A stretch of DNA of 41,981 nt from Actinomycetota bacterium. GTDB taxonomy: Bacteria; Actinomycetota; Actinomycetes; S36-B12. The notes under the pieces are model-generated. The model ran no database searches. It was not told where the DNA came from and worked only from the letters and a program-made list of their open reading frames with translations. Positions 32,132 to 37,323 of this stretch are shown here, one piece after another. The stretch lies in assembly GCA_017856385.1 (NCBI GenBank), contig JAFMFD010000012.1:1-41981 (forward strand), given 5' to 3'. The first letter of the stretch is position 1. Each line of letters starts with the position of its first letter. A program made the position numbers and the translations under genes.

Positions 32132-32569
32132 TCAGCGCACGACCGGCAGACCTGCCTCCTGCCAGCCGACGATCCCGGTCTGCAGTTCGTACACGCTCGT
32201 GAGGCCCGCCTGCCGCATTGCGTCGACGGCGGCCTGCGACCGGTTGCCGCTGCGGCAGTAGACGGCGTAGGTGCCGGCGGGGTCGAGCCCGGCAACCTGG
32301 GTCGCGAAGTCCGGGCCCTGGAGGTTGTAGTTGACGGCGCCCTCGATGTAGCCCTCCGCGAACTCCTCGGGCGTGCGGACGTCGATGATCTGCACGCCGG
32401 GTGCGGCCACGACCTGTGCGAAGGCCTGCGCATCCACGCGCTGGGGGGCGGTCGCTGCCTTGATCGGTACGGCCTCGGCGGTGCCGGTGGGGCTAGAGGA
32501 GCAGCCGGCGAGGGCGATGAGGGCGGTGGCGGCGAGGGCGGCCGCGGCCGTCCGGGTTGAGGTCAGCAT
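32132..32569 (-). CDS. Rhodanese-domain lipoprotein
   Basis: A 145-residue extracytoplasmic sulfurtransferase-like protein. The lipobox LIALAGC (Cys23) anchors it on the outer face of the membrane. One rhodanese domain (about 42-145) carries the active-site Cys105 in YCRSGNRSQ and the family's DVRTPEEFAEGYIEGAVN. It would bind or transfer sulfane sulfur, or thiols, outside the cell. A 16-bp palindrome covers its promoter and start codon, strongly suggesting tight control. It lies 13 bases downstream of the CopD-CtaG fusion on the same strand, so it may serve copper or cytochrome-oxidase thiol chemistry. Confidence 0.92.
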   Translation of the reverse strand: MLTSTRTAAAALAATALIALAGCSSSPTGTAEAVPIKAATAPQRVDAQAFAQVVAAPGVQIIDVRTPEEFAEGYIEGAVNYNLQGPDFATQVAGLDPAGTYAVYCRSGNRSQAAVDAMRQAGLTSVYELQTGIVGWQEAGLPVVR

Positions 32570-32583
32570 ACCCCCTAGGGTAT
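32568..32583. promoter_or_regulatory. CsoR/CstR-like operator over the rhodanese promoter
   Basis: ATACCCCCTAGGGTAT is a palindrome of two perfect 6-bp arms (ATACCC and GGGTAT) around four bases. It resembles operators of CsoR (copper) and CstR (persulfide) repressors, which have AT-flanked, GC-rich centres. It overlaps the last base of the CopD-CtaG gene, the whole -10 (TACCCT, 32582-32577, minus strand) and the first two bases of the rhodanese start codon. Protein bound here would block transcription. Confidence 0.6.
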
Positions 32584-34619
32584 CAGGCCCGATCCTGCCG
32601 GTGGAGAGATGCCAGCCGCTCGTTGTAGGCCCGCAGCTCGGCGTCGTCGTCCCGGTCGGCCTGCCGGTCGTGCCGCTTCGCGTCGCGTGCGTCGCTGCGC
32701 GACCACTGCACGGCGATGGCGATGAGCACGATGAGGTTCGGGATCTCCCCGAGCCCCCATGCGACCTGTCCGCCGTTCAGGCTGTCCTGCAGCGAATCGC
32801 CGATCCACGGCGGCCGCACGATGCCGTACCACTCGGTCGCGAGGGGTTCGGTCCCCATCATCATCGCCACGGCGAAGAAGCCGTGCACGGAGATGGCGAG
32901 CAGGAGCAGCAGGAAGCGACCCCAGTAGGGAAGGGGGCGCGGACGCGGATCGATGCCGATGAGCACCCAGTAGAACAGGTAGCCGGAGAACAGGAAGTGC
33001 AGCTGCATCACCACGTGCCCGACGTGGCTGCCCATGAGCCAGCCGAAGGCGGGCGTGAAGTACAGCGCGTACAAGCCGATGACGTAGACGAAGAACACGT
33101 AGAACGGGTTCGTCAGGATGCGCGTGATCCAGCTGTGCAGGAACCAGACCAGCCACTCTCGCGGGCCGCGCTCATTGCCCACCGCGGGCTTGAGTGCGCG
33201 CAGCGCGAGCGTCGCCGGGGCTCCGAGCACGAGGAGGATGGGGGCGAGCATCGTCAGCGTCATGTGCTGGACCATGTGCAGGCCCACCGACACCTGCGAG
33301 TAGACGGAGATCCCCGCGTTGGTGCACCAGATCACGACGCCGAGGCCTGCCAGCCAGGCCACCGTGCGCATCACCGGCCACGCATCGCCGCGCGCGCGCA
33401 GGCGGAACACCCCGGCGACGTAGAGGCCCGCGGCCACGAGTGCGCCAGTGAGGAACAGCGGGTCGAAGGAAAACCCGAGTGCAACGTTCGCGATGGTGGG
33501 CGCGGGCGGGTACGGGAACCCGAGCAGGCTCTCGCCGTAGGTCGTCATCAGCACCTCGACCCGGGGAGTCGGGCTGCTGGCGAGGGCGACGCCAAGGCCG
33601 ACCGCCGTGACCATGACGAGCAGCTCGATGCCGGCGACCCTCGCGAACACGGATGCCCGGGAGGAGCGGCCGAGGGTCGAGGTGACGCGAGCGCGCATGA
33701 GCCATCCGAGGATCCCCAGTGTGACGATCAGTCCGGCCTTGAGCAGGAGCATCTGCCCGTAGCCGGTGGTGACGAGCTGGCCCGCGTTGTCCAGTCGCGT
33801 GTAGGCGTTTGCCACACCGCTCGCGGCGAGCAGCAGGATCGAGACTAGGGCGATGGTCGAGAAGCGCTCGACGGGCCGTGCGAGCGGCAGGTCGCGCCGA
33901 GCGGCGTGCACAGCCAGTGCCAGCAGGCCGCCAATCCACAGCACGGCCGCCACCACGTGGGCGACACCCGCTGTCGTCGCGAGGGCATGGTCGCCGAGGC
34001 CGGCCGCGTGCCCTGCGAGCGCGGGCAGGACGGCGGCGGCGATGGCGACGATGAGCCAGGCTGCCCCCACGCCCGTCGTGACCGTCACCAGCGAGCCGAC
34101 CGCGACGACGAACGCGAGGATGGCCATGAACAGCAGCGCCCGGGTCGCCGGGATCTCGTTGGAGTAGGTCGAAACCACGTCGGGGTTGGCGGCGTCTGCC
34201 AGGGGCAGTCCGAGGATCGCGGCGAGCTCGACGAACATCTGCAGCACCGCGAGGACGGCCCAGGCGAGAGCGGAAGCGGTGGCGCGCCTCAGGTCCGTCC
34301 GTCCCGCGCGTGAGACGACGCCCTCGCGCGACGAGGGGTCGAGGAGGGTCGCGGCGAGCAGCCACCCGATCGTGGCGATCGCGGCGAGGTTGGTCAGGGC
34401 ACGCAGCACCGGGGCGCCCCAGCCCACGAGCGGACCGGGGTCCGGCAGTCCGTCAGCGGCCGGGATGTACGAGCCGTCGGCGACGACCAGCCCGAACGCG
34501 GTCGACACCACGGTCAGAGCGACGAGCGACGCGGCGATGAGGCCGAGGATCGGCCCGCTCACCGGTCGCCAGGTGGCGGAGGAGGCACGTCCGGTGCCTG
34601 CCGAGGCCGTCCTGGTCAC
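32583..34619 (-). CDS. CopD-CtaG fusion membrane protein (copper and oxidase assembly)
   Basis: A 678-residue polytopic membrane protein. The N-terminal half (about 1-360) is a CopD-type copper-resistance domain with several helices and HAAGLGDHALATTAGVAHVVAAVLWIGG-like His-rich segments. The C-terminal half (about 360-625) is a caa3-type CtaG oxidase-assembly domain, with SVGLHMVQHMTLTML and GSHVGHVVMQLHFLFSGY as His-rich copper-binding candidates. A charged tail ends the protein. Actinobacteria often carry this fusion. The start is set at the GTG at 34619 (TACGCT six bases upstream) because the upstream part is low complexity. It diverges from cystathionine beta-synthase. Confidence 0.87.
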   Translation of the reverse strand: MTRTASAGTGRASSATWRPVSGPILGLIAASLVALTVVSTAFGLVVADGSYIPAADGLPDPGPLVGWGAPVLRALTNLAAIATIGWLLAATLLDPSSREGVVSRAGRTDLRRATASALAWAVLAVLQMFVELAAILGLPLADAANPDVVSTYSNEIPATRALLFMAILAFVVAVGSLVTVTTGVGAAWLIVAIAAAVLPALAGHAAGLGDHALATTAGVAHVVAAVLWIGGLLALAVHAARRDLPLARPVERFSTIALVSILLLAASGVANAYTRLDNAGQLVTTGYGQMLLLKAGLIVTLGILGWLMRARVTSTLGRSSRASVFARVAGIELLVMVTAVGLGVALASSPTPRVEVLMTTYGESLLGFPYPPAPTIANVALGFSFDPLFLTGALVAAGLYVAGVFRLRARGDAWPVMRTVAWLAGLGVVIWCTNAGISVYSQVSVGLHMVQHMTLTMLAPILLVLGAPATLALRALKPAVGNERGPREWLVWFLHSWITRILTNPFYVFFVYVIGLYALYFTPAFGWLMGSHVGHVVMQLHFLFSGYLFYWVLIGIDPRPRPLPYWGRFLLLLLAISVHGFFAVAMMMGTEPLATEWYGIVRPPWIGDSLQDSLNGGQVAWGLGEIPNLIVLIAIAVQWSRSDARDAKRHDRQADRDDDAELRAYNERLASLHRQDRA

Positions 34620-34625
34620 GGGCCG

Positions 34626-34735
34626 AGCGTACGACGGGCTCCGCCGGGCCGCGGTCCCGCCGGGCCCCGGACTCCCGCGAAGCCTTCGCAGGTGCATGAG
34701 CCGGACTTGCACCCCGATGATCCGCTTGCCACGGT
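34626..34735. promoter_or_regulatory. Divergent leaderless promoters, CopD-CtaG and CBS genes
   Basis: TACGCT (minus strand, 34631-34626) is six bases before the CopD-CtaG GTG. CACGGT (plus strand, 34730-34735) is six bases before the CBS GTG at 34742. No ribosome-binding site is seen before either gene. Confidence 0.45.
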
Positions 34736-34741
34736 CAGGTC

Positions 34742-36118
34742 GTGGACTACGTGGACTCGGTGACGGACCTCATCGGCAACACCCCCCTCGTGCGCCTCGG
34801 TCGGGTGCTGGACCGACCGGATGGGGGGAGCGGGCCGCTGGTCCTGGCCAAGGTCGAGTACCTGAACCCCGGTGGGTCGGTCAAGGACCGCATTGCGTCG
34901 CGGATGATCGACGCGGCCGAGGAGCAGGGGCTGCTGGCCCCGGGTGGCACCATCGTCGAGCCCACCAGCGGCAACACTGGCGTGGGCCTGGCGCTGATCG
35001 GCCAGCAGCGCGGGTACTCCTGCATCTTCGTCTGCCCGGACAAGGTCAGCGAGGACAAGCAGAACGTCCTGCGTGCCTATGGCGCGCAGGTGGTCGTGTG
35101 CCCGACGGCGGTGGACCCCGAGGATCCGCGCTCGTACTACTCAGTGAGCGACCGACTCGTGCAGGAGATCCCGGGAGCGTGGAAGCCGGACCAGTACAGC
35201 AATCCGGCGAACCCCCGCACGCACTACGAGACCACCGGTCCGGAGATCTGGCGTCAGACCGACGGGCGGATCACGCATTTCGTCGCGGGCATCGGAACGG
35301 GCGGCACGATCTCAGGCACGGGCCGCTACCTGAAGGAGGCCAGCAACGGCGCCGTGCGCATCATTGGCGCCGACCCGGTGGGCTCGGTCTACTCGGGAGG
35401 CACGGGTCGGCCCTATCTCGTGGAGGGCGTGGGCGAGGACTTCTGGCCCGCGGCCTACGACGAGGGCATCTGCGACGAGGTGATCGCGGTGTCCGACGCC
35501 GATGCCTTCGCGATCACCCGACGCCTCGCCCGCGAGGAGGGCCTGCTCGTCGGTGGCTCGTGCGGGATGGCGGTCGTCGCCGCGCTCGACGTGGCCCGCC
35601 GAGCCGCGCCTGACGACGTCATCGTCGTGCTGCTGCCCGACGGCGGTCGCGGCTACCTGTCGAAGGTGTTCGATGACGCGTGGATGCGCTCGTACGGCTT
35701 CCTCGCCGGCGATGCCGACCGCACGCTCGGCGACATCCTGCGCGAGAAGGGCGGCCTGCTGCCCCAGTTCGTCCATATGCATCCGACGGAGACAGTGCGC
35801 GAGTCGATCGACGTGCTTCGCGAGTTCGGCGTCTCGCAGGTGCCGGTCGTGCGCGCCGAGCCGCCGATCCGCGCTGCGGAGGTGGTCGGCTCGGTCTCCG
35901 AGCGCGACCTGCTCGACGCGGTGTTCTCCGGACGGGCACTGCTCTCCGACCGCGTTGAGCAGCACATGTCGCCGCCGCTGCCGATGATGGGAGCGGGGGA
36001 CTCGATCCAGGCGGCTGTCGGATCGCTGGCCGATGCGGACGCCATCATCGTCGTCGAGGGCGGCGTTCCCGTCGGGGTGGTCACTCGGCAGGATGTGCTC
36101 GCGCACCTCGCCTCCTGA
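34742..36118 (+). CDS. cbs: Cystathionine beta-synthase
   Basis: A PLP enzyme of 458 residues that condenses serine (or O-acetylserine) with homocysteine to form cystathionine in reverse transsulfuration. The PLP Lys is in NPGGSVKDRIASRM, the phosphate loop is SGNTG, and GIGTGGTISGTGRYLKE is typical of the family. Two C-terminal CBS domains (about 330-455) follow and may bind adenosyl ligands. The GTG start at 34742 has CACGGT six bases upstream. It is followed 50 bases later by cystathionine gamma-synthase/lyase. Length and the CBS pair match actinobacterial Cbs (Rv1077-like) rather than plain cysteine synthase. Confidence 0.93.
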   Translation: MDYVDSVTDLIGNTPLVRLGRVLDRPDGGSGPLVLAKVEYLNPGGSVKDRIASRMIDAAEEQGLLAPGGTIVEPTSGNTGVGLALIGQQRGYSCIFVCPDKVSEDKQNVLRAYGAQVVVCPTAVDPEDPRSYYSVSDRLVQEIPGAWKPDQYSNPANPRTHYETTGPEIWRQTDGRITHFVAGIGTGGTISGTGRYLKEASNGAVRIIGADPVGSVYSGGTGRPYLVEGVGEDFWPAAYDEGICDEVIAVSDADAFAITRRLAREEGLLVGGSCGMAVVAALDVARRAAPDDVIVVLLPDGGRGYLSKVFDDAWMRSYGFLAGDADRTLGDILREKGGLLPQFVHMHPTETVRESIDVLREFGVSQVPVVRAEPPIRAAEVVGSVSERDLLDAVFSGRALLSDRVEQHMSPPLPMMGAGDSIQAAVGSLADADAIIVVEGGVPVGVVTRQDVLAHLAS

Positions 36119-36168
36119 CTACGTCCAGTGGGTGCCGGGATGACGCGGCCGAGCAGAGGGGATCGACC

Positions 36169-37323
36169 ATGACGGGCTTCGAGACGCGGGCCATCCACGC
36201 TGGGCAGGAGCCGGATCCGTTGACCGGCGCTGTTGTGCCGCCGATCTACCAGGTCTCCACCTTCAAGCAGGACGGCGTCGGTGGCCTGCGCGGCGGATAC
36301 GAGTACGCGCGCAGCGGCAATCCCACGCGGACGGCGCTCGAGGAGTGCCTCGTCGCGCTCGAGGCGCCGGGTGTCGAGGGAGCACGCTGCCTCGCGTTCG
36401 CGTCCGGACTGGCCGCCGAGGACACCCTCATCCGCGCACTGTGCCGTCCCGGTGACCATGTCGTCCTCCCGCACGATGCCTACGGCGGCACCTACCGGCT
36501 GTTCACCAAGGTGGCCGGGCCGTGGGGTGTGGAGGTGACACCCGTGAACGTCACCGATCCGGACCTGCTGAGCGCCGCCCTCGTCCCGGGCCGTACGCGG
36601 CTCGTCTGGATGGAGACCCCGTCGAACCCGCTGCTGTCGATCGCGGACATCGCAGCAGCTGCGGAGGTGGCTCATGCGGCGGGCGCCCTGCTCGTCGTCG
36701 ACAACACCTTCGCGTCGCCGTACCTGCAGCAGCCGATCGGCCTCGGGGCCGACATCGTCGTGCACAGCACCACGAAGTACATCGGCGGCCACAGCGATGT
36801 CATCGGCGGTGCACTCATCGTCTCGGACCTGCAGGTCGCCGAGACCCTGGCCTTCCACCAGAACGCGCAGGGGGCGGTACCCGGACCATTCGACGCCTGG
36901 CTGACCCTGCGCGGCGTGAAGACGCTCGGCGTGCGCATGGACCGCCACTGCGCGAACGCGAGGGCCGTGGCCGGCTTCCTCGTCGACCATCCCGCGGTGG
37001 CGCAGGTGATGTGGCCCGGCCTCCCGGATCATCCGGGGCACGACGTCGCCACCCGGCAGATGCGCGACTTCGGCGGCATGGTCTCGTTCCGGGTCGCGGC
37101 CGGAGAGGAGGCGGCCCTTGACGTGTGCAGTCGCACGACGGTGTTCACGCTGGGAGAGTCGCTCGGCGGCGTCGAGTCGCTCATCGAGCACCCTGGTCGC
37201 ATGACCCACGCGTCCGTCGCCGGCAGCCCCCTCGAGGTCCCGGCCGACCTGGTGCGGCTGTCGGTTGGCATCGAGTCGGTCGACGACCTGCTCAGCGACC
37301 TCGATCGGGCGCTGGGCGGCTGA
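36169..37323 (+). CDS. metB: Cystathionine gamma-synthase/lyase
   Basis: A PLP enzyme of 384 residues in the Cys/Met metabolism family. Motifs include the start ETRAIHAGQEPDPLTGAV, YEYARSGNPTR with the Tyr and Arg of the active site, and the Schiff-base Lys203 in HSTTKYIGGHSDV. Family members either make cystathionine from O-acyl-homoserine or split it to cysteine. Pairing with cystathionine beta-synthase favours a lyase role in reverse transsulfuration, but the sequence is of the MetB type and both activities may occur. The start follows AGAGGGGA. It converges on the acyl-CoA dehydrogenase gene. Confidence 0.9.
   Translation: MTGFETRAIHAGQEPDPLTGAVVPPIYQVSTFKQDGVGGLRGGYEYARSGNPTRTALEECLVALEAPGVEGARCLAFASGLAAEDTLIRALCRPGDHVVLPHDAYGGTYRLFTKVAGPWGVEVTPVNVTDPDLLSAALVPGRTRLVWMETPSNPLLSIADIAAAAEVAHAAGALLVVDNTFASPYLQQPIGLGADIVVHSTTKYIGGHSDVIGGALIVSDLQVAETLAFHQNAQGAVPGPFDAWLTLRGVKTLGVRMDRHCANARAVAGFLVDHPAVAQVMWPGLPDHPGHDVATRQMRDFGGMVSFRVAAGEEAALDVCSRTTVFTLGESLGGVESLIEHPGRMTHASVAGSPLEVPADLVRLSVGIESVDDLLSDLDRALGG

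Follow-up and report, generated by a model that had tools for sequence, protein, structure and literature searches.

In the window, that is, the whole stretch of 41,981 nucleotides analysed here, a gene for a rhodanese lipoprotein follows a gene for a CopD-CtaG fusion protein, and the junction between them is occupied by a 16-bp palindrome. The features at this junction are as follows.

32568..32583, no strand assigned: predicted CstR-class operator of 16 bp, ATACCC-N4-GGGTAT (equivalent to ATACC-N6-GGTAT), from the sequence, genome scans and conservation.
32577..32582, minus strand: putative -10 hexamer TACCCT inside the operator, from the sequence; also present in six relatives with the same junction.
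32567..32569, minus strand: ATG start codon of the rhodanese gene, 7 nt past the putative -10 and with two bases in common with the operator, an arrangement that would be leaderless.
32132..32569, minus strand: rhodanese lipoprotein of 145 residues, predicted regulon member (Pfam Rhodanese, lipobox LAGC, loop CRSGNRS).
32583..34712, minus strand: CopD-CtaG fusion, upstream neighbour in conserved synteny (Pfam CopD and Caa3_CtaG), whose stop codon abuts the operator.

The sequence at 32568-32583 is ATACCCCCTAGGGTAT (ATACCCTAGGGGGTATG on the minus strand), an exact copy of the palindrome that the earlier note had described there. On the minus strand, it begins at 32583, on the final base of the ctaG stop codon, and runs two bases into the rhodanese start codon. 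The actinobacterial -10 consensus is TANNNT; it is fitted by TACCCT (32582-32577, minus strand), which is followed by 7 nt and then by the rhodanese ATG. Because this -10-like hexamer lies so close to the start codon, the rhodanese transcript is plausibly leaderless, with a transcription start predicted from the sequence, and the proposal that the operator covers a probably leaderless rhodanese promoter is in agreement with a hexamer inside the palindrome and an overlap of two bases with the ATG. The Pfam matches and the lipobox also bear out the two neighbours that had been named, a copper/oxidase fusion upstream and a rhodanese lipoprotein downstream. Beyond CopD-CtaG, at 34742-37323 of the window, a PALP+CBS-domain protein (cystathionine beta-synthase-like) and a Cys/Met-metabolism PLP enzyme are encoded, both of kinds able to make sulfide and persulfides, with no operator beside them.

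No second operator site with two mismatches or fewer was found by a pattern scan of the window. For matches of this quality the shuffle expectation is 0.34, and at least one was present in 30 of 100 shuffled windows, so that the window by itself proves nothing about the operator. CopD-CtaG was considered as a regulon member and rejected, the window offering it no further site and conserved synteny being its only tie. In the source genome (2.6 Mb, 161 contigs, 95.8% complete), a search for further copies, as the earlier note had advised, revealed four exact 16-bp sites in all and none of the reversed control. When up to two mismatches were allowed, 22 matches stood against 10 in the control, and weak matches are thus largely noise. 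A site with one mismatch at C114:8632, located within a molybdopterin oxidoreductase reading frame and some 260 bp ahead of a TauE gene, was treated as a probable chance match.

Over the order, 142 exact sites were counted in 40 genomes (source genome included), 32 of which carry such sites, and the reversed control gave 0 in each genome; chance is thereby excluded and the operator palindrome is beyond chance. The junction itself, ctaG - ATACCCT[A/G]GGGGGTATG - rhodanese, is kept in all seven genomes where it was met (the source genome, G001, G002, G008, G011, G012 and G023). There the 16-mer reads ATACCCT[A/G]GGGGGTAT, followed by G, and overlaps the rhodanese ATG. The overlap with the ctaG stop codon would also suit a chance or structural palindrome, such as a terminator or a repeat, with no regulatory role, but with 142 sites against a control of 0 and with 16 bp exactly conserved between diverged flanks this explanation is exceedingly improbable.

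The genes beside the sites were then taken as the predicted regulon. In the source genome, the exact sites adjoin the rhodanese lipoprotein gene, an MBL-fold + rhodanese gene (interrupted by a contig end), a thioredoxin gene and a gene for a 38-residue Cys-rich peptide, and the site with one mismatch lies between the regulator gene described below and a divergent gene for a CMD-family protein, which we take to be AhpD-like. The thioredoxin gene is divergent from a DUF3039 gene across the operator; this pair with a common operator-bearing promoter was seen at several loci (L004, L061, L062, L099, L119), and at L056, where the contig end cuts the locus, DUF3039 stands alone. A census was made of 91 distinct exact sites among the 142 of the 40 genomes, the four of the source genome included, with genes counted up to 130 bp away. 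A gene of one recurrent set was found at 89 of the 91, against a background of 2 in 270 window positions, a count that is partly circular because nine of its reference proteins came from these very sites, and that includes proteins without a proven sulfur role. With the source-genome references alone, 65/91 sites match, and 44 when the peptide is left out. At the two sites lacking a recurrent gene, the contig ends 28 and 33 bp past the site.

When only neighbours of assigned role are counted, leaving out peptide, transporter and membrane protein, 59 of the 91 sites remain, each beside a sulfur, thiol-redox or regulator gene; a further 30 have no recurrent neighbour but the peptide or the transporter/membrane pair. 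By family, as read from representatives and with a site counted twice where it serves two divergent genes, the neighbours are the peptide (23), rhodanese (18), thioredoxin (11), the regulator (9), a 170-residue membrane protein (9), a SLAC1/TDT transporter (7), persulfide dioxygenase (PDO)-like proteins (6), CoA-disulfide-reductase-like proteins (6), CMD (5), DCC (3), SQR-like proteins (3), thioredoxin reductase (2), peroxiredoxin (1) and a CcdA-like protein (1). The PDO assignment is based on the combination of MBL and rhodanese domains, with no equivalog cut-off reached. At six loci (L051, L052, L076, L079, L109, L120), the SLAC1/TDT transporter gene is divergent, across one operator, from that of a membrane protein of 165-177 residues with a GCPVCNK-type motif, whose L051 representative has no Pfam or NCBIfam match; the two are possibly an export or thiol pair.

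A search of the source genome for a csoR/cstR-like gene, likewise advised earlier, yielded a single PF02583 (DUF156) protein (78.5 bits, cut-off 22.8), encoded outside the window at C144:26860-27117, which is the candidate cognate regulator. Its aligned residues are C35, G60 and C64, with a glycine where copper sensors have a histidine. Upstream of its gene lies the 16-bp form with one mismatch and no 17-bp site; among 12 regulator promoters of the genus, three match the palindrome exactly, eight end in TAG and one in TAC. The exact 17-bp form, ATACCC-N5-GGGTAT, is absent from the source genome. The best PDB sequence matches are 7mq1 and 7mq3, labelled CsoR there and presumably a CstR. The CstR of S. 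aureus is a CsoR paralogue that lacks the copper ligand set. In the protein found here, the PF02583 domain, two cysteines with no histidine between them, an N6 operator at its own gene and at its targets, and sites at sulfur genes are the marks of a CstR; of those of a copper CsoR, the C-H-C set and the 17-bp operator are missing and the linkage to copZ and copA is present. The 16-bp spacing together with the missing copper-ligand histidine points to the CstR (persulfide) class rather than CsoR, and on the same two grounds a copper CsoR was rejected as the cognate factor. The earlier note had left the choice between CsoR and CstR open, and its class assignment can now be narrowed to the second. 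From sequence comparison, the palindrome is thus very probably the operator of the sole CsoR-family repressor found in the source genome, a predicted two-cysteine persulfide/polysulfide sensor of the CstR type.

copZ begins 13 bp beyond the regulator gene and its stop codon overlaps the start of copA; the only two HMA-domain matches of the source genome are at this locus. This is the classical CsoR arrangement and, with the CopD-CtaG gene adjoining the site in the window, it would suit a different explanation, in which the operator is that of a copper CsoR, a sensor of Cu(I), and the rhodanese belongs to a copper response. To weigh it, the operator spacing was compared between paralogues. Over the order, the PF02583 family comprises 13 distinct proteins of the C-H-C group and 34 of a group without the histidine; the latter are not independent, as they include near-identical pairs (G002/G009) and the broken or misassembled L159, and in their alignment L155 and L159 lack the second cysteine. 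Among the no-His genes, 25/34 are preceded by ATACC-N6-GGTAT within one mismatch (9/34 have no such site; reversed control, 2/34) and 0/34 by the N7 form, whereas the C-H-C genes have N6 in 0/13 and exact N7 in 10/13. Counted over whole genomes, exact ATACCC-N5-GGGTAT is present in 12 of the 13 that encode a C-H-C CsoR vs 1 of the 27 that do not (p = 3e-8), with one match each of the reversed control in G025 and G038; in G029, G035 and G037 the site lies away from the CsoR gene. G027 has three exact 17-bp sites and a C-H-C CsoR as its sole PF02583 protein, a candidate small copper regulon.

The comparison was extended to the phylum by searching 198 genomes twice, which gave 59 best-match loci besides our own (L294-L352) with 58 distinct regulators; these are the best matches of each query and not a random draw, and they were counted by alignment with one duplicate dropped. 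The 16-bp site (at most one mismatch) was detected at 20/29 no-His vs 0/29 C-H-C regulators (p = 1e-8), and the 17-bp site at 1/29 vs 17/29, the sole no-His exception matching both the N6 and the N7 form with one mismatch each. One base of operator spacing therefore separates the no-His and the C-H-C paralogues. No statement of this rule was found in the literature searched, which lay largely outside subscription journals.

These results speak against the copper CsoR explanation, since the spacing of our site was met at none of the C-H-C regulators (0/13 in the order, 0/29 in the phylum) and the ligand histidine is replaced by glycine. In the three genomes of the family where both paralogues were seen (G014, G021, G022), the C-H-C CsoR is the one beside copA and has the 17-bp site; a 16-bp site, with one mismatch in G022, goes with the no-His regulator, whose gene has a divergent CMD neighbour. 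As 59/91 sites also adjoin sulfur, thiol-redox or regulator genes, a copper CsoR operator is improbable. At the genome level, exact 16-bp sites are present in 29/33 genomes with a no-His regulator vs 3/7 without (p = 0.02), a hand tally giving a modest link that is weakened by incomplete genomes and by G032. The latter is 97% complete and has five exact sites with no PF02583 match, which may reflect a missing contig or another regulator. A no-His regulator without an exact CCC-N4-GGG site was seen in G031, G035 and G037, and also in G020, which has two ATACC-N6-GGTAT sites.

The regulator-copZ-copA order was found in 12 of 14 genomes of the genus, plus G016 and G020; the remaining two (G005, G008) gave no PF02583 match. 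A CopA match is present in each of the 14, and neither a C-H-C CsoR nor an exact 17-bp site was detected in any of them, several of these assemblies being incomplete (73-85%). No CsoR-family regulator of either kind was found within the fetched copA flank of G015, G017, G018, G019 and G023. In the phylum, same-strand copZ/copA was seen in the flank of 0/28 best loci of the CstR query (L306 has them on the other strand) vs 16/31 of the CsoR query; the capture of copZA by a CstR-type regulator thus looks lineage-specific. The CopA tree is poorly resolved, and its starred branches force at least two changes of the CstR-linked label. A unit with CopD-CtaG, as put forward in the earlier note, is not supported, since no site with up to two mismatches precedes ctaG; a copper-sulfur link does exist, but at regulator-copZ-copA.

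A sensor of both signals in the genus could account for this locus: Cys35 and Cys64 alone would answer persulfide and Cu(I) (or Ag(I)), so that the protein could replace CsoR at copZA with copper control kept. The regulator preceding copZ-copA in 12/14 genomes that have CopA and no sign of a C-H-C CsoR or its exact site would be in line with such a role, which we consider possible but rather unlikely, as no genus member has regained the histidine at that position and a loss of copper-specific control is equally compatible with the data.

The peptide that is the most frequent neighbour of the sites has the motif MC-x4-C-x2-C ... GCGQH ... RC-x-C, with 10 invariant positions in 45 sequences, and gave no Pfam or NCBIfam match at E values up to 1. 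Its scan of the genome collection confirmed at least 553 places, and the best 80 of these, all with actinobacterial titles, were kept. Within 150 bp upstream, ATACC-N6-GGTAT was present at 38 of these best 80 of at least 553 (35 exact, 3 with one mismatch), and the controls were 0/80 for the reversed site (at most one mismatch) and 26/2039 exact in other windows; 42 of the 80 are without the operator, among them L178, which has just 65 bp upstream. A fold search with its AlphaFold model (pLDDT 86, pTM 0.47) returned no match at E < 0.001; nine weak ones at E 4 to 10 are without meaning. The peptide might be a zinc, copper or sulfane-sulfur carrier; no mention of it was found in the articles searched, mostly ones outside subscription journals. 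Directly downstream of the operator-bearing peptide gene of the source genome lies a heliorhodopsin gene (PF18761; L003:1797-2600, C123). At L044, L049, L071, L085, L087, L097 and L108 the peptide is longer and ends in a tail such as FFARLFG, which may seek the membrane.

According to the proposed mechanism, the reduced CstR-type repressor would bind DNA over the -10 and the start codon of the rhodanese gene, which is probably leaderless, and keep this gene off. Persulfides, as inducer, would modify Cys35 (with Cys64) and the repressor would leave the DNA, so that the exported rhodanese would be made together with the PDO-like MBL-rhodanese protein, thioredoxin, the 38-residue peptide and the CMD-family protein. 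Because the regulator gene heads copZ-copA, probably as a co-transcribed operon, copper export in the genus would be placed under the same persulfide sensor. A wider interpretation, to which we give slightly less than an even chance, is that the 1-bp difference in spacing insulates the paralogues (16 for persulfide, 17 for copper), that the genus lost its copper sensor and the persulfide sensor captured copper export, and that the peptide is a core effector throughout the phylum. If so, copper export in the genus would be an arm of the reactive-sulfur response, and the Cys-rich peptide, which is widespread and matches no Pfam or NCBIfam family, would have a role in reactive sulfur. The spacing rule would allow copper and persulfide sites of Actinomycetota to be told apart from sequence alone. 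The genus also seems to provide a natural example of a copper regulator supplanted by a paralogous sensor, so that the way in which paralogous repressors avoid cross-talk becomes directly testable through the gain or loss of a single base pair.

In S. aureus, the CstR regulon comprises cstAB-sqr and cstR-tauE (PMC6299908), and likewise PDO-rhodanese, SQR-like and CoA-disulfide-reductase-like genes adjoin the sites in relatives of our genome; S. aureus, however, keeps a separate CsoR for copZA (PMC6299908), whereas one CsoR-family gene was found in the source genome. The Thermus regulator TTHA1953 is also a CsoR-family regulator of sulfur genes, with a site that the cell's own copper CsoR does not share, but that site, TACNNTACNNNNGTANNGTA, is without a continuous G/C tract (PMC10318464). 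The copper CsoR of S. lividans has sites in front of its own gene and of copZA operons. Their consensus, ATATACCCCTNAGGGGTATAT, has a 5-nt spacer, with 17 bp counted between the outer half-sites ATA and TAT; the half-sites are the same as here and the spacer is one base longer (PMC3902906). In S. coelicolor, ScCsoR (SCO0620), a protein with two conserved cysteines (Cys37/Cys66), binds the persulfide-dioxygenase promoter with ATACCn6GGTAT and is released by polysulfide (PMC7533328), so that both published Streptomyces sites, of a sulfane-sulfur sensor and of a copper CsoR, obey the spacing rule. ScCsoR is reported to act by persulfidation of one cysteine and not by cross-links of the S. aureus CstR type (PMC7533328), and the chemistry may therefore differ. 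ScCsoR is the closest published case: it shares the 16-bp site and the two conserved cysteines, and it is a repressor of its own gene and of those for a persulfide dioxygenase and a rhodanese. There, however, the four genes are united with a sulfite transporter in a single circuit (PMC7533328), whereas here the sites are scattered, thioredoxin, the Cys-rich peptide and an exported rhodanese lipoprotein are added, and the regulator heads copZ-copA.
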